Part shown: one piece after another, positions 31,174-46,496 of the stretch | Layout of the letters: the number at the start of each line of letters is the position of its first letter | Position numbering within the stretch: the first letter of the stretch is position 1 | NCBI GenBank assembly: GCA_903923925.1 | Contig: CAIXZF010000072.1 | Coordinates: 62,001 to 126,000, forward strand | Reading direction: 5' to 3' | From: an uncultured Bacteroidales bacterium | GTDB taxonomy: Bacteria > Bacteroidota > Bacteroidia > Bacteroidales > CAIXZF01 | DNA: 64,000 bases | Notes under the pieces: generated by a model | The model's database searches: none | The model's input: the letters and a program-made list of their open reading frames with translations, nothing else | Told to the model about the DNA's origin: nothing | Program-made: the position numbers and the translations under genes

Positions 31174-31785
31174 TTGCTCAGGATGTCGAAGCAGGAAGAA
31201 AAAATAAACCCATCATTACATACCCGCAGGATTGTTGTAAAAAACATGGTTTGCAACTGCTGTGCACGAATAATCCGAATAGAGCTGGAATCAATAGGTG
31301 TTACTATTCTGGATATTCGTCTTGGTGAAATTAATCTCGAATTCGATTCTTCCATCATCACCTTCAAACAGATTGAGAATTGCCTGAATACCAATGGTTT
31401 CGAAATCGTTGAGGATAGAGATAAAGTCTTACTCGAACAAGTAAAACATGCAGTAATCGATCTTGTACATCATTCTACTTTCAATGCAATGGTCCGGAAT
31501 TCCGATTATCTGGTAGAACGTTTCGGGGTGAGTTATCAGTACCTTTCAAACCTTTTCTCGAAAGCCGAAGGAACCACACTCGAGAAGTACATTATTGCCA
31601 ACAAAATAGAAAAGGCAAAGGAATTAATACAGGCTGGCGATCTGACACTCAGTGAAATAGCATATATGATGGGGTACAGTTCTGTCCAGTATCTTTCAAC
31701 CCAGTTTAAAGCTGTAACCGGAATATCTGTTTCCGACTACAAACGCGATCCAGCGGATTACCGTAAGTCGGTTGATAGTTTATAA
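31174..31785 (+). CDS. AraC-family HTH regulator with N-terminal HMA-like domain
   Basis: 'VVKNMVCNCCARIIRIELESIGVTILDIRLGEINLEF' HMA-like CxxC; C-terminal 'LTLSEIAYMMGYSSVQYLSTQFKAVTGISVSDYKR' AraC HTH. Confidence 0.88.
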   Translation: MLRMSKQEEKINPSLHTRRIVVKNMVCNCCARIIRIELESIGVTILDIRLGEINLEFDSSIITFKQIENCLNTNGFEIVEDRDKVLLEQVKHAVIDLVHHSTFNAMVRNSDYLVERFGVSYQYLSNLFSKAEGTTLEKYIIANKIEKAKELIQAGDLTLSEIAYMMGYSSVQYLSTQFKAVTGISVSDYKRDPADYRKSVDSL

Positions 31786-31846
31786 TCGACACCGTATTCC
31801 AGTAAACTATCCGCTGAAATGTTTGTTATTGCAATAAAGAATAATC

Positions 31847-39436: not shown

Positions 39437-39700
39437 ATGAAGTTAAAACCAAATATTGCCGTGAGTGAGTCGGGTTTTGTGTTTAACCCTGCTACCGGAG
39501 AGTCGTTCACCCTGAATCCAATCGGTGCAGAAATTATAGCTAAAATCCATGAAGGCCTCGATTATTCAGAAATTTCTGAATGGGTAAAAAAGGAATACAC
39601 AACAGATGAAGCCACTTTTGAGAGAGATTTCAACGATTTTGTTGGTCAGCTAAAAATTAATGGCCTTTTTGAGAAAAGCAAAAATGAAGAGAAAGCTTAA
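39437..39700 (+). CDS. PqqD-like (RRE-fold) protein
   Basis: About 87 aa; 'LKPNIAVSESGFVFNPATGESFTLNPIGAEIIAKIHEGLDYSEISEWVKKEYTTDEATFERDFNDFVGQLKINGLF' is a PqqD-like pattern; ATG at 39437 preferred. Confidence 0.82.
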   Translation: MKLKPNIAVSESGFVFNPATGESFTLNPIGAEIIAKIHEGLDYSEISEWVKKEYTTDEATFERDFNDFVGQLKINGLFEKSKNEEKA

Positions 39701-40727
39701 TATTGGCGTAACCGCACTGAACGCTATCGACAGTCCGGGGCCAGGAGTACCAGTTATCAGGGCACTCAGGGAGGCAGAGTCCTTTGATGTAAATATCATA
39801 GGCCTGTCCTATGAATCACTTGAGCCGGGAATTTATATGCATGATCTGGTAAACAAGACCTACCATATACCATACCCATCATCTGGTATGGACGCATTAA
39901 TGTACAGGCTGAACTATATTCATGAGAAGGAAAAACTCGATGTAATCATTCCGAATTTCGATGCCGAGCTTTTCTCTTTTATGAAACTTTCAGACAAACT
40001 GAAAGATATGGGAATTCATACATTCCTCCCCACAATTCCGCAGTTTGAGGAAAGACATAAACATAATCTGCCAGAATTTGGTGAGAAATACGGATTAAAT
40101 GTCCCGAAAAGTAAGGCAATTTATGATCCTGTTGAAATTCAGAGCATTGCTGGAGAGTATAGCTATCCGATTGTTGTAAAAGGCAAATTTTATGATGCAA
40201 GTATAGCCTACAATTATGAGCAGGCCAAAAGCTACTATAACAAGATTTCTGCAAAATGGGGTTTGCCAATTATTATCCAGGAATTTGTGCACGGTACAGA
40301 GTTTAATGTAACCGGGCTGGGCGATGGAAATGGAAATACAATTGCCGCCGTTCCAATGCGTAAACAGTACATCACAGACAAAGGAAAGGCCTGGGGCGGA
40401 ATTACCGTCGACGATAAGCGCATGCTCGACCTTACCGATAAATTTATCAGCCAGTCGAAGTGGCGTGGAGCATTCGAACTTGAACTTATCAAGGCTCAGG
40501 ATAACGAATTCTATATCCTCGAAATAAATCCCCGCATCCCAGCATGGATTTACCTGGCAGTGGGAGTTGGGCAGAATATTCCCGAAGCCCTTGTAAACCT
40601 TGCCCTGGGCGAAAAGGTATATCCTTTTACTTCCTTCGATGTGGGTAAAATGTTTATCCGGTATTCATGGGATATGATAGTTGATCGTTCAGAATTTGAG
40701 CAGATTTCTGTACAAGGTGAATTGTAA
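39660..40727 (+). CDS. ATP-grasp domain protein (CarB-like)
   Basis: 'YPIVVKGKFYDASIAYN', 'IIQEFVHGTEFNVTGLGDGNG', 'FELELIKAQDNEFYILEINPRIPAW' ATP-grasp motifs; overlaps the PqqD-like gene. Confidence 0.88.
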   Translation: MAFLRKAKMKRKLNIGVTALNAIDSPGPGVPVIRALREAESFDVNIIGLSYESLEPGIYMHDLVNKTYHIPYPSSGMDALMYRLNYIHEKEKLDVIIPNFDAELFSFMKLSDKLKDMGIHTFLPTIPQFEERHKHNLPEFGEKYGLNVPKSKAIYDPVEIQSIAGEYSYPIVVKGKFYDASIAYNYEQAKSYYNKISAKWGLPIIIQEFVHGTEFNVTGLGDGNGNTIAAVPMRKQYITDKGKAWGGITVDDKRMLDLTDKFISQSKWRGAFELELIKAQDNEFYILEINPRIPAWIYLAVGVGQNIPEALVNLALGEKVYPFTSFDVGKMFIRYSWDMIVDRSEFEQISVQGEL

Positions 40728-40756
40728 TTAGTATGAATTTTTAAAATCAGAATAGA

Positions 40757-42124
40757 ATGTCAATCAGCGATAAAAAAAGATACGAAAGGCCGATGATTAA
40801 GAAGATGGAGGCCGGCGTTCCAAATAAATTCGGGCTCAGATCTGAATACACTCCAATGCAGGAGATCGACGGAGTTAGTATTAAACAGCTTTTAAAGGAC
40901 TACGGTACCCCGGTTTTTGTGTTATCAGAAACCACCATCCGTTCGACCTTCCAGAAAGCAAAAAAAGCATTTACAACACGATATCCTAAAGTTCAGTTTG
41001 CCTGGTCGTACAAAACAAATTATCTGGATGCCGTTTGTAAGGTTTTTCATCAGGAAGGTTCATGGGCAGAAGTCGTGTCAGGTTTCGAATACGATAAGGC
41101 AATAAATAATGGCGTTTCAGGAAAGAAAATAATTTTTAACGGACCCGATAAAACAGAAAATGACCTGGTTAAAGCCATTAACAATGAGTCACTTATTCAT
41201 ATTGACCATCTAGATGAACTTTACCTTCTTATCGAAATTGCCGATAAATTAAATGTACGTCCAAAGGTTGCCATCAGGGTAAACATGGATACAGGTGTAT
41301 ATCCTATGTGGGACCGATTTGGTTTTAATTATGAAAACGGACAGGCATGGGATGCAATAAATAAAATCATGCGCTCCGGCAAAATGGAACTTATGGGGCT
41401 GCATACACATATAGGAACGTTTATGCTCTCTCCAAACGCATATGCGATTGCTGCTTCCAAACTTGCCGATCTCGCAATCAGCCTTGAACAGAAGTACAAT
41501 CATAAGGTGAAATACATTGATATGGGTGGTGGATTTGCTTCCAAAAACACGCTTAAAGGAGCATATCTCCCAGGTACAGATACTAATCCAAGCTTTGACG
41601 ATTTTGCAGAATCAATTACAACGGCACTTTTAAATGCAAATTTCAAAAGTGATGAGATGCCACTATTGATACTGGAAACAGGACGCGCCCTGATTGATGA
41701 GGCTGGTTATTTACTTGGAACAGTTATTGCCAACAAACGCGCTTCTACTGGTAAACGGCTCACAATTATGGATATTGGCGTAAATATACTCTTCACCGCT
41801 TTCTGGTACGATCATAAAATTACTCCTGCTCAGCCATTCACCCATTATACTGAAGAAACTGCTATTTATGGCCCACTTTGTATGAACATTGATGTAATAC
41901 GCGAAAATATAAATCTTCCCTTGCTTAATAAAGGAGATAACATGGTAGTTCATTATGTGGGAGCCTATAATATGACCCAATGGATGCAGTTTATTACCTT
42001 ACGCCCGAAAGTTGTTTTAATCGATACAAATGGTACTCCTCATGTTATCCGGGAGAACGAAACGAATGAAACAATTACTTCCTTAGAAAAGACACCTCAG
42101 CACCTGTCAAGTTTTAATCTTTAA
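40757..42124 (+). CDS. PLP-dependent decarboxylase, fold III (diaminopimelate decarboxylase-like) with N-terminal extension
   Basis: 'VQFAWSYKTNYLDAV' PLP-lysine, 'LMGLHTHIGTF', 'DMGGGFASKN', 'ILETGRALIDEAGYLLGTV'; about 40-aa extension containing 'RYERPMIKKMEAG'. Confidence 0.9.
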   Translation: MSISDKKRYERPMIKKMEAGVPNKFGLRSEYTPMQEIDGVSIKQLLKDYGTPVFVLSETTIRSTFQKAKKAFTTRYPKVQFAWSYKTNYLDAVCKVFHQEGSWAEVVSGFEYDKAINNGVSGKKIIFNGPDKTENDLVKAINNESLIHIDHLDELYLLIEIADKLNVRPKVAIRVNMDTGVYPMWDRFGFNYENGQAWDAINKIMRSGKMELMGLHTHIGTFMLSPNAYAIAASKLADLAISLEQKYNHKVKYIDMGGGFASKNTLKGAYLPGTDTNPSFDDFAESITTALLNANFKSDEMPLLILETGRALIDEAGYLLGTVIANKRASTGKRLTIMDIGVNILFTAFWYDHKITPAQPFTHYTEETAIYGPLCMNIDVIRENINLPLLNKGDNMVVHYVGAYNMTQWMQFITLRPKVVLIDTNGTPHVIRENETNETITSLEKTPQHLSSFNL

Positions 42125-42152
42125 TTAGTTAATAGAATCAGAAGGTTAAATC

Positions 42153-44360
42153 ATGAATAAATTCCGGCAGCTTTTCCCTCACTTCGTTCAGGCATTGCTT
42201 AACAGCTATACCCAGATCTTTTTCAGTAACAGCCTTGTGTTTGGTGCATTGATCATGCTTGTTACTTTCTTTGATTTCTGGGCAGGATTAAGCGGGATAA
42301 CTGCCGTTCTGGTTGCCAATGGCCTGGCATACATTATTGGTTTTAACCGCTTTAATATCCGTTCGGGGTATTATGGCTTTAACAGCCTTCTGGTAGGACT
42401 TGGGATCGGGGTTTACTTTAAACCCGGACTGGAACTCTTTCTTGTTATTGCTTTTGCAGCCTTATTAACATTGTTTATTACTATAGCATTGGAAGGAGTG
42501 ATCGGGAAATATGGTCTGCCATATCTCAGCATTCCTTTCCTTCTTGGAATATGGCTCGTAACCTTAGCTTCCCGTCAATTTCACCACCTTGAAATTTCGG
42601 AGAGAGGTATATATTCCTTAAACGAAATGTATATGCTCGGCGGCGTTCAAATGGTGAATATTTATGAGTGGTTTAACGACCTCAACTTACCAACTACTAT
42701 AACGATCTATTTCAGGTCGCTTGGGGCTATTTTCTTCCAGTATCATTTGTTTCCCGGAATTATCATTGCAATCGGACTAATCTATTTTTCCAGGATTGCA
42801 TTCCTGCTGTCATTGCTGGGGTTTTATTCCGCTTATGCTTATTATTCCTACATCGGAGCCAATTTCGATGAGCTGACCTATGGATACATTGGCTTTAATT
42901 TTATTTTGACAGCAATTGCTATTGGTGGTTTTTTTGTTGTTTCTTCCCGTTACTCCTTCCTTTGGGTAATACTCCTAACTCCTTTGATTTCATTTATTAT
43001 CACAGGTTTTAATACGATTCTTGCTACCTGGCAACTTTCAATATATTCGCTACCTTTCAATATTATTGTTGTAATGTTCCTTTATACACTCAGGTTCAGG
43101 GAGCGTTTTTATCTGAAACCGGAAATGGTTCTTTTTCAGCAATATTCGCCGGAACGGAATTTATATTCACAAATTAACAACAAGAACCGCTTTAAAAATG
43201 CCTTGTACTATCAGATTTATCTCCCATTTTTTGGAGAGTGGACTGTTACCCAGGCTCACAGTGGCAATCATACACATAAGGGAGATTGGCGCCACGCCTG
43301 GGATTTTGAAATTGTCGACGAAAATGCAAAGGTTTATAAGGGAGATGGACTGAAACTTGAGGATTATTATTGCTTCAATAAGCCAGTGTTGGCACCTGCT
43401 GACGGTTATATTGTTGAAATAATTGATTATATTGATGATAATGCAATTGGTGAAATGAACATCCAGAATAACTGGGGTAACACAATTGTAATTAAGCATC
43501 TGGAAGGTTTGTATACAAAGTTATGTCATCTGAAAAAGGAGAGCATTAAGGTAAAATCTGGCGACTATGTGAAGAAGGGAGATAATATAGCTCTTGTAGG
43601 GAATTCAGGTCGCTCTCCGATTCCGCATCTCCATTTCCAGATTCAGGCTACCCCTTATATCGGATCTAAAACACTCGATTACCCCTTGGGAAATTATATA
43701 CGGCACTATAATGGCTTGTTTAATTTCATGTCCTATGATCGTCCGTTGCAAGGAGATATTGTTTCTAATGTTCAGAAAAACAATACCTTGAATAAAGCTT
43801 TTAACTTGATTCCGGGCCAGAGTATACAACTTAAAATGCAGGATAAGAAACAATCGCGAAATGAACAATTCGATTGGGAAGTTCAAAGCGATATTTATAA
43901 TTATACCTATATTTTCTGTGAACAAACCAATTCTAAAGCCTATTTTCATAATGATGGAAATGTGTTCTATTTTACACGTTTCGAGGGTAATAAACGTTCA
44001 TTACTCTTTGCTTTCTACCTTGCCGCCTATAAAGTACTTACAGGCTTTTACAAGGGTTTACAGATTACCGATACTCTGCCACCAGGAGAGTTAAATAATA
44101 TTGTTTTCCTCACGCTTCAGGATTTTATAGCACCATTCTACGTATTTCTGAAAACTGAATATAAGATCGATTATGTAAACATTGAAGACGATTTCGGAAA
44201 AAGCGAAATTCATTTGAAATCCGAAGCTGATGCTAAAATCGGAAATTGGATAGTAAAGAAATTTGAATTTGAGATAGTTATTAAAAATGAGCGTTTCGAG
44301 CGCTTATCCATTATTACAAATAACAGGAGGATTGAAGTTAGTGAGATCGAATCAAATTAG
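42153..44360 (+). CDS. Urea transporter-M23 metallopeptidase fusion protein
   Basis: N-terminal about 330 aa UT-like ('NSLVFGALIMLVTFFDFWAGLSGITAVLVANGLAYIIGFNRFNIRSGYYGFNSLLVGLGIG'); C-terminal M23/LytM-like ('HKGDWRHAWDFEI', 'PVLAPADGYIVE', 'VGNSGRSPIPHLHFQI'). Confidence 0.9.
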   Translation: MNKFRQLFPHFVQALLNSYTQIFFSNSLVFGALIMLVTFFDFWAGLSGITAVLVANGLAYIIGFNRFNIRSGYYGFNSLLVGLGIGVYFKPGLELFLVIAFAALLTLFITIALEGVIGKYGLPYLSIPFLLGIWLVTLASRQFHHLEISERGIYSLNEMYMLGGVQMVNIYEWFNDLNLPTTITIYFRSLGAIFFQYHLFPGIIIAIGLIYFSRIAFLLSLLGFYSAYAYYSYIGANFDELTYGYIGFNFILTAIAIGGFFVVSSRYSFLWVILLTPLISFIITGFNTILATWQLSIYSLPFNIIVVMFLYTLRFRERFYLKPEMVLFQQYSPERNLYSQINNKNRFKNALYYQIYLPFFGEWTVTQAHSGNHTHKGDWRHAWDFEIVDENAKVYKGDGLKLEDYYCFNKPVLAPADGYIVEIIDYIDDNAIGEMNIQNNWGNTIVIKHLEGLYTKLCHLKKESIKVKSGDYVKKGDNIALVGNSGRSPIPHLHFQIQATPYIGSKTLDYPLGNYIRHYNGLFNFMSYDRPLQGDIVSNVQKNNTLNKAFNLIPGQSIQLKMQDKKQSRNEQFDWEVQSDIYNYTYIFCEQTNSKAYFHNDGNVFYFTRFEGNKRSLLFAFYLAAYKVLTGFYKGLQITDTLPPGELNNIVFLTLQDFIAPFYVFLKTEYKIDYVNIEDDFGKSEIHLKSEADAKIGNWIVKKFEFEIVIKNERFERLSIITNNRRIEVSEIESN

Positions 44361-45876
44361 TAAACTTAAGTTAAGCGTTCATATATATTCATTTATTCTG
44401 ATAATGTTTGGATTACTTATTTCCGGCAAAATTTCAGGGCAGGCAACCAACAGGATGCTGGGTGATGGCGAAGGCGGAGATATTGAAAAGACTTCTTACA
44501 GGCTTTTTACAGAATTAAAATGGGATTCATTAATCCAGTTCAACACATATGCCATTAAACAGGGTACCGATTATTTTTACCTGCGTGAGCGTCTTGGAAT
44601 TGCCTGGTACGAAAAGCAAAACTATCGCAAAGCTGTTGAAAATCTCGAAGTTGCCTATACAATGAATCCCACCGATAACTATAATAATGCCACCCTTTAC
44701 TGGTGTTATCTTAATGCAGGCAGAAGAGGAGATGCTTCCTTATTCGGGATTAAAATGAGCAACGAAAGCCAGGCATATTACAAGTATTCCAAAAGTAAAC
44801 TGGTGGAAAATGTTTTTGTTGAATCTGGACCTTCGTTTTCTGGAAATTATAAAGCGCAGGAGGATATTCAGATTCAGGGAACTGATACTACTATTTATGG
44901 TGAAAATAACCTTTCAGGAAATTCATTTTATACACATGCCGGCATTACTACAAAACTATTTCCATGGCTGAAAATATACCAGGGGTATAGTCAGATCAAT
45001 ACGGATATGCAAAAACGTTCTGTTTTCAGAATCCAATATCCAAGCATCACAGATCACGATACAACCGGAGCATATCAAAATAAGCAGCATGAGTATTATC
45101 TGTCCGCCAGCATTTTCCCAAAGCAAGGGTGGACAATTACTCCTTCCTTCCATTATATATATTCCGAAGCTCTTAGTTTTAATTATCACTATTACTGGGA
45201 TACAACCTTATATTGGGCAAATCCTGGCTGGGATACTGCTCAGACTGTCCAGTATTATGATAATTATGCTTTTATTGATACAGCGAAAATATTTCATAAT
45301 TATGTTGCTTCACTTGGAATTTCATATGACTATAAGGCTTTTAACTTCTATGCCTATGGAAGCTTTTCCAGGATTAATAGTCTGAATCAGAAAAGTGCAG
45401 GCTTTTCTATATCATGGTTTCCAAAAGGGAATCTTGATATTTATTCGGTTTCTTCCCTGTCGGTGATGCAATCAGAATACTGGAAACTGGGAGGTTCAAG
45501 TGGTAAAGGATATGGTGCCGGAAATGGCATTTCCAGTTACTCAAAACAGACCGATAACCGATTGATATTAAATCAGAAGCTTGGGGTTAAACTCCAGCAT
45601 AAAATATGGCTTGAAGGGAGCATTTCTTTTGGAGACCTTGACATGTATTCTGATCAGAATGCCTTTATAGTTTATAATGTGGCAGATAAAATTAAACAGA
45701 AAGCCGGACTCGCATTAATCTGTCCTATCAATCCCAGGTATGAATTGTTTTTACGCTACAACCGTTACTTGCGACAAAGTAGTTATATAACATATACGGG
45801 ATCAGAAACATTTACTACTAATTCAGTTAATTATTTAAATCACAGTGTAATAGGAGGTATAAAATGGTATTTCTAA
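44341..45876 (+). CDS. TPR protein with C-terminal beta-barrel-like region
   Basis: GTG at 44341 gives a signal peptide 'SVHIYSFILIMFGLLISGKISGQ'; TPR-like 'YRKAVENLEVAYTMNPTDNYNNATLYWCYLNAG'; C-terminal aromatic beta strands ending 'SVIGGIKWYF'. Confidence 0.75.
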   Translation: MRSNQISKLKLSVHIYSFILIMFGLLISGKISGQATNRMLGDGEGGDIEKTSYRLFTELKWDSLIQFNTYAIKQGTDYFYLRERLGIAWYEKQNYRKAVENLEVAYTMNPTDNYNNATLYWCYLNAGRRGDASLFGIKMSNESQAYYKYSKSKLVENVFVESGPSFSGNYKAQEDIQIQGTDTTIYGENNLSGNSFYTHAGITTKLFPWLKIYQGYSQINTDMQKRSVFRIQYPSITDHDTTGAYQNKQHEYYLSASIFPKQGWTITPSFHYIYSEALSFNYHYYWDTTLYWANPGWDTAQTVQYYDNYAFIDTAKIFHNYVASLGISYDYKAFNFYAYGSFSRINSLNQKSAGFSISWFPKGNLDIYSVSSLSVMQSEYWKLGGSSGKGYGAGNGISSYSKQTDNRLILNQKLGVKLQHKIWLEGSISFGDLDMYSDQNAFIVYNVADKIKQKAGLALICPINPRYELFLRYNRYLRQSSYITYTGSETFTTNSVNYLNHSVIGGIKWYF

Positions 45877-46496
45877 GAAATGTTGCAGCAGGATTATTCG
45901 TTGGAATACTTGCATTCTTAACAGTTAATAACGCATTTTCGCAGGATTTTAAAGCAATCCAACTTGCTTTTAGTAGTAGTTATGCCAGCGAAAAAGCAGG
46001 TGAGCATACAAAAGCGATTGAGGAACTAAAAAAGATTTATGATACTGAATCCTATGAAATAAATCTCCGACTGGGCTGGCTCAGTTATCAGGCAGGTTTA
46101 TTTACGGAATCAATGGCATATTACCAAAAAGCAATTGCATTAAGACCATTTGCTATTGAAGCCAAACTTGGATTCGTTTACCCGGCCTCTGCCAAAGGGA
46201 ATTGGGAACAGCTAAGAACCCAATATGTTGAAATTCTGAAGATTGATCCTCAGAATTCATTAGTAAATTACCGGATGGGATTAATTTATTACGGCAAAGA
46301 GGATTTTACAACCGCGTTTAAGTACTTTGAAAAGGTAGTGAATCTTTATCCTTTCGATTATGATTCCCTAATCATGTTTGCCTGGACAAACTTTAAACTT
46401 GGTAAGTATCGTGAAGCTAAAGTCTTATTCAACAAGGCTCTGATGAATAAACCTAATGATTCTTCAGCTTTAGAGGGTTTGAGCTTGATAAAGTAA
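45864..46496 (+). CDS. Secreted TPR protein
   Basis: Signal peptide and TPRs ('GLFTESMAYYQKAIALRPFAIEAKLG'); overlaps the previous gene by 13 bp. Confidence 0.82.
   Translation: MVFLRNVAAGLFVGILAFLTVNNAFSQDFKAIQLAFSSSYASEKAGEHTKAIEELKKIYDTESYEINLRLGWLSYQAGLFTESMAYYQKAIALRPFAIEAKLGFVYPASAKGNWEQLRTQYVEILKIDPQNSLVNYRMGLIYYGKEDFTTAFKYFEKVVNLYPFDYDSLIMFAWTNFKLGKYREAKVLFNKALMNKPNDSSALEGLSLIK

Follow-up and report, generated by a model that had tools for sequence, protein, structure and literature searches.

What does a PqqD-like protein do in an operon that holds no precursor peptide? RiPP recognition elements (RREs) serve as class-independent beacons in the discovery of ribosomally synthesised and post-translationally modified peptides (RiPPs), and a PqqD protein without a precursor is usually taken for a false positive or for the trace of a missed peptide. 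Such a protein opens an operon of six genes in a 64,000-nucleotide stretch of DNA from an uncultured Bacteroidales bacterium (NCBI GenBank assembly GCA_903923925.1, contig CAIXZF010000072.1, positions 62,001 to 126,000 of the forward strand; hereafter the window, whose own coordinates are used throughout). Next come genes for an ATP-grasp ligase, a pyridoxal phosphate (PLP) decarboxylase, a fusion of a urea-transporter (UT) channel with an M23 metallohydrolase, and two exported tetratricopeptide repeat (TPR) proteins, the first of which also has a beta-barrel. The likely partner of the PqqD-like protein is the decarboxylase itself, as it carries a leader-like N-terminal tail, which the original prediction made from this DNA had overlooked.

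Organization and conservation of the operon

All six genes are co-directional on the plus strand at the positions originally predicted for them, and their families were confirmed by profile matches. The PqqD and ATP-grasp genes overlap by 17 nt, the UT-M23 and barrel genes by 20 nt, and the barrel and TPR genes by 13 nt; the remaining gaps are 28-29 nt. The next gene downstream, ispG, lies outside the conserved unit.

The original prediction took these genes for a co-inherited pathway, and we examined their co-occurrence in other genomes with the ATP-grasp ligase as the query, distinguishing strong orthologues from weak paralogues (E > 1e-24). Strong orthologues, sharing 40-64% identity, were present in 34 of 396 sampled Bacteroidota genomes. 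Forty neighbourhoods were compared first, 34 loci with a strong orthologue and six with a weak paralogue. The order of PqqD, ATP-grasp, decarboxylase, UT-M23, (barrel) and TPR genes was kept in 34/34 of the former, as far as the contigs extend, and the cluster was not found at the six loci of the latter. The same operon picture emerged from a second set, 80 named GTDB loci. Overall, many of the loci come from metagenome-assembled genomes. The PqqD gene was present in 114 of 115 loci, the single exception beginning at a contig end. By class, the operon occurs in 76/395 genomes of the window's own class and in 13/245 and 62/391 genomes of two other classes of the phylum. Conservation of gene order is far beyond chance, and since the flanks vary between loci, the operon is co-inherited as a unit, which bears out the prediction. 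No earlier description of this gene combination was found in a literature search that left most subscription journals outside its reach.

A leader-like tail on the decarboxylase

The decarboxylase gene (40757-42124) encodes 455 residues. In the alignment of its orthologues, a segment of ∼28 residues with the consensus KKxYERPxIxKxxxGxPNKFG precedes the catalytic core; in the window this tail comprises residues 1-28 (40757-40840, plus strand) and is supported by motif conservation, low model confidence and co-variation with position 64 of the PqqD-like protein. The motif [Y/F]-E-R-P-x-[I/L/V]-x9-K-F-G is conserved in all 105 near-full-length orthologues. Its shorter form, [YF]xxPx[ILV], is likewise found in 105/105 of these and in 220 of 223 members of a larger set, where the three exceptions are interrupted frames. 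Within the tail, the lysine at +15 is invariant (105/105), the glycine at +17 is present in 104 sequences, and the F-G following the lysine is nearly invariant. The corresponding elements in the window, all on the plus strand, are YERPMI at 40781-40798, the invariant Lys24 at 40826-40828, and NKFG at 40823-40834.

Other fold-III decarboxylases of the cluster genomes do not share this feature: the motif was found upstream of the core in 0/20, three regular-expression matches among them being counted, by our own reading, as inside the core. In an AlphaFold model based on 20 sequences, residues 1-28 have a predicted local distance difference test score (pLDDT) below 50, and the core blocks are mostly at ∼90. 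Being both strongly conserved and predicted to be disordered, the tail resembles a binding tag. No PDB sequence matched the 34-residue tail, as expected for so brief a query.

The PqqD-like protein as a partner of the tail

The PqqD-like protein (39437-39700; 87 residues, Pfam PqqD 3e-10) has the discrete RREs of lasso-peptide systems, TbiB1 (5V1U) and TfuB1 (6JX3), as its closest solved chains. Discrete lasso RREs recognise leaders of the form [Y/W]xxPx[L/V/I/F/A], and in LppB, N33 contacts the leader proline and D70 the leader tyrosine (PMC13381572); PMC12710340 gives YxxP as the characterised lasso motif. The predicted leader contacts of the PqqD-like protein, N27 and D64, lie 37 residues apart, as do N33 and D70 of LppB, and N27 is invariant in 225/225 orthologues. 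The operon therefore shares with the lasso systems (TbiB1, TfuB1/FusB1, LppB) the PqqD fold family, the YxxPx[LVIFA] motif and the identically spaced Asn/Asp contacts. The motif, however, is located on a 455-residue enzyme rather than on a precursor peptide, and the operon has no protease B2, lasso cyclase or radical S-adenosylmethionine enzyme. Nor is it a standard PQQ or mycofactocin cluster, in line with the original prediction.

If position 64 contacts the tail tyrosine, to which its residue is expected to form a hydrogen bond, the two should vary together. In 216 loci where both traits could be read, a tail with Tyr is accompanied by Asp (187) or Asn (2) at position 64, and a tail with Phe by Tyr, Ser or His (27); no locus departs from this rule. 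Among the PqqD columns, position 64 ranks first for co-variation with the tail. On the ATP-grasp tree, the Tyr/Phe state of the tail and the D/N-versus-other state of position 64 each require four changes, all four of which coincide, and the two traits agree in every testable pair. As one clade holds most of the Phe tails, Fisher p-values of the Tyr/Asp association were not used as a measure of evidence; the co-variation is treated as a specific prediction that came true. Judged by sequence, the PqqD-like protein and the tail are likely an RRE/leader pair in which the enzyme itself carries the leader, and docking of the tail by the PqqD-like protein is well supported as a prediction.

The invariant lysine could also give the tail a different role, that of a substrate carrier. 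The ATP-grasp ligase would load an amino acid onto Lys24, the PqqD-like protein would steer the tail, and the decarboxylase would act on its own loaded arm, serving as enzyme and carrier protein at once. The conservation of Lys24 and of the adjoining F-G fits this scheme, and BtrK, which acts on glutamyl-BtrI, is a known case of a decarboxylase whose substrate is bound to a carrier protein (PMC7857480). Yet the linker from Lys24 to the catalytic core is short, ∼12 residues, and the lysine may merely contact the PqqD-like protein or the ligase, so that we regard a carrier role as rather unlikely. We give similarly little credence to a combined version, in which the leader/RRE pair has been repurposed for assembly and delivery of a metabolic enzyme, possibly with a swinging arm that the ligase charges at Lys24, that the PqqD-like protein presents and on which the decarboxylase acts in cis, and with a cytoplasmic M23 at the mouth of the UT channel releasing the product into it.

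RiPP clusters frequently contain PqqD proteins and ATP-grasp ligases, and their precursors often escape annotation. The operon might then be an orphan RiPP pathway, in which the PqqD-like protein serves an unannotated precursor encoded elsewhere and the ligase and decarboxylase modify that peptide; indeed, ATP-grasp is among the RiPP identifiers (PMC12710340). A RiPP cluster is expected to hold a short precursor gene with leader and core, but the loci have no conserved small gene, and with median intergenic gaps of -14 to 31 nt most of the operon leaves no room for one; the original prediction had also noted no classical precursor. Among 113 loci, no small gene recurs except that of an HMA-AraC-like protein (see below). 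A hidden precursor was rejected on these grounds and because the other YxxP-like matches of the region lie inside unrelated frames. Moreover, the sole conserved YxxPx[ILV] motif that was found is the one on the decarboxylase, which co-varies with the PqqD-like protein. A RiPP product is accordingly improbable.

Chemistry of the decarboxylase and the ligase

The decarboxylase (Orn_Arg_deC_N, 2e-28) retains the PLP residues of fold III, the alanine-racemase fold: K86, H216 and the GGG loop G257-259 in 157/157 sequences, and the catalytic C375 in 156/157. Its best solved match is the N-citrylornithine decarboxylase 7KH2 (1e-88), followed by LysA, with BtrK further down. Substrate contacts of both leading matches are replaced. 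The Glu that binds diaminopimelate (DAP) beside the catalytic Cys of LysA is replaced by M376 (157/157), as in FigC, and the DAP-binding Arg of the LysA specificity helix by T347 (156/157). In FigC, H357 and R387 contact citrate (PMC7857480); here they correspond to I378 (157/157) and Q408 (156/157, one gap). The pocket has invariant Trp350, Gln408 and Gln411 in place of the charged side chains that recognise the distal end of the substrate in the other enzymes. With the DAP and citrate contacts replaced, the enzyme should act on neither DAP nor N-citrylornithine, and the loss of the charged distal-end residues suggests a substrate whose distal group is uncharged, for example an amide.

Of the original assignment as a LysA-like fold-III enzyme, the fold stands, and decarboxylation of DAP or lysine is not supported. 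All cluster decarboxylases score 213-248 bits with NCBIfam lysA, below the cut-off of 297.9, and a separate LysA above the cut-off is encoded in 25/30 cluster genomes. No LysA above the cut-off was found in the source genome of the window (G000), though DapF is present there, nor in G116, G031, G124 and G366; the reason may be a gap in the assembly or a lysine pathway that ends in another step. That the decarboxylase serves as the missing LysA of the source genome was considered and rejected, because its active-site residues speak against this and most other cluster genomes encode a LysA of their own.

The ATP-grasp ligase (39684-40727) belongs to the PRK12767/ATPgrasp_Ter type (ATPgrasp_Ter 3e-11, PRK12767-type 9e-25), and its typical residues K167, E268, E281, N283 and R285 are invariant in 20 orthologues. 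The Ter-associated and CarB-like (PRK12767) ligases and MfnD are of the same Pfam family, and MfnD likewise acts in a pathway with an amino-acid decarboxylase; here, by contrast, the operon has no Ter genes, and the ligase scores far below every equivalog cut-off. Two further known systems are comparable. FigC/FslC (7KH2), the closest solved homologue of the decarboxylase, has the same Cys-Met in place of Cys-Glu/Asp and the same sequence of ligation followed by decarboxylation, but our operon encodes no synthetase of the NRPS-independent siderophore type, and its decarboxylase has Ile and Gln at the citrate contacts, adds the N-terminal tail, and reaches 241 bits where the FslC cut-off is 500. 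In butirosin biosynthesis (BtrJ/BtrK/BtrI), an ATP-grasp ligase and a fold-III decarboxylase also work with a small protein; there it is an acyl carrier, whereas here it is an RRE, and no phosphopantetheine carrier is encoded in the operon.

The UT-M23 fusion and the envelope proteins

The fourth gene (42153-44360; UT 2e-60, M23 2e-17) encodes a UT channel followed by an M23/LytM metallohydrolase domain and a C-terminal beta domain, a fusion found in all 90 aligned orthologues. In the model, the UT part matches the Desulfovibrio urea transporter dvUT (3ME1) with a TM-score of 0.86 and has the full UT fold, and the domain after it matches LytM/M23 structures. The zinc ligands and the catalytic His of M23 (H375, D384, H459, H492, H494) are invariant in 90/90. 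Basic residues mark the N-terminus, loop 63-74 and the stretch that follows the final membrane helix (post-314), and the mirror loop 235-246 is acidic; this charge pattern predicts a cytoplasmic location for the C-terminal domain and for M23, which probably faces the cytoplasm. This placement presumably agrees with that in known urea transporters.

The fifth gene (44341-45876) has a GTG start after AGGAGG and encodes a signal peptide, a TPR-like part with a weak TPR match, and an outer-membrane beta-barrel; its orthologues have in common the signal peptide and a WDSLI..YYYLR.R repeat region. The product of the sixth (45864-46496; TPR_2 4e-18), which is conserved at this place in the operon, is a plain periplasmic TPR protein with a signal peptide. 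The original description of two secreted TPR/barrel proteins therefore holds for the fifth gene, and for the sixth in its TPR part only. The coupling of an ATP-grasp and decarboxylase core to a membrane channel, also foreseen, is supported.

A role in the cell wall, which the original prediction had proposed, does not agree with a cytoplasmic M23. Under such a scheme an amino acid or DAP would be decarboxylated in connection with peptidoglycan remodelling by a periplasmic M23. The LysA-type fold, the invariant zinc ligands, and the barrel and TPR proteins as envelope parts are compatible with it, but the DAP-binding residues are lost, most cluster genomes encode a separate LysA, and the loop charges place M23 on the wrong side of the membrane; we find it very unlikely. 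Urea or ureide scavenging, with urea imported by the full-length UT fold and assimilated by the enzymes, is hardly credible, as urease is encoded in 1/30 cluster genomes, which makes urea nutrition unlikely and leaves urea use unsupported, and as the UT score of 123.7 is below the urea-transporter equivalog cut-off of 274.6. Compared with the SLC14-type urea transporters (dvUT, UT-B), the protein is thus alike in its full fold and different in its fusion to M23/LytM and the beta domain, in its sub-threshold score and in the lack of urease in most hosts.

Variation among loci

Flavobacteriia-like loci have a different barrel gene, placed after the TPR gene. In these loci (e.g., L041, L045, L052), a secreted protein of ∼280 residues with a C-terminal sorting domain of the type IX secretion system is also encoded upstream of PqqD in the same direction. 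The interval between the decarboxylase and UT-M23 genes holds an eIF2B-like/sugar-phosphate isomerase-like gene in six loci (L097, L098, L106, L107, L112, L119), and genes for a histidine kinase and a class I aminotransferase in L109, L114 and L139; the inserted aminotransferase could be a hint to the pathway substrate. On the single 3.74-Mb contig C1 of genome G124, an identical ATP-grasp and decarboxylase region is found near both ends, at ∼3.9 kb and 3735 kb; this is probably an unclosed circular genome.

A small protein, combining an HMA-like NMxCxCC domain with an AraC-type helix-turn-helix, is encoded upstream of PqqD in loci within L072-L149, and its orthologues lie directly upstream of the operon in ∼30 loci. 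Its best homologue in the window (31222-31788, plus strand), a candidate regulator, is 7.6 kb upstream of the operon, between unrelated genes. A role as a system-specific regulator was rejected, as these genomes commonly encode members of the family whether or not they have the operon.

Proposed mechanism

Our preferred interpretation, which we hold with moderate confidence, is that two of the encoded enzymes form a biosynthetic assembly, joined through a recognition pair of the RiPP type that has ceased to serve the making of a peptide. In this assembly, the PqqD-like protein would bind the YxxPx[ILV] tail of the decarboxylase as lasso RREs bind their leaders, docking the enzyme onto itself and probably onto the ATP-grasp ligase also. 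The ligase would most likely act first, forming an amide bond to an amino acid, and the neutral conjugate would then be decarboxylated by the second enzyme, in the order of FigA and FigC in rhizoferrin or BtrJ and BtrK in butirosin biosynthesis. We infer that the small uncharged product may travel through the UT channel, on the cytoplasmic side of which the M23 domain would act on the substrate or product, and that the periplasmic TPR protein and the outer-membrane barrel may carry it across the envelope.

Several points weigh against this interpretation. Most Phe tails belong to a single clade, in which three reversions to Tyr are inferred, and only two of the pairs are on well-supported branches; a phylogeny-aware sign test is underpowered at these numbers and cannot reach significance. 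Asn was grouped with Asp at position 64 after the data had been seen. The lost charged residues are the sole ground for a neutral conjugate as the substrate, the topology of UT is derived from charge and from known urea transporters, and sequence does not allow substrates of UT proteins other than urea to be predicted. The operon probably makes and moves a small molecule.

If the proposed assembly is real, leader/RRE recognition can act as a protein-protein docking code outside RiPPs. Orphan PqqD proteins would gain a testable explanation in YxxP tails on neighbouring enzymes. It would also point to a small-molecule pathway, widespread and as yet uncharacterised, that includes an unusual fusion of a channel with a hydrolase and whose operon many Bacteroidota species have kept.

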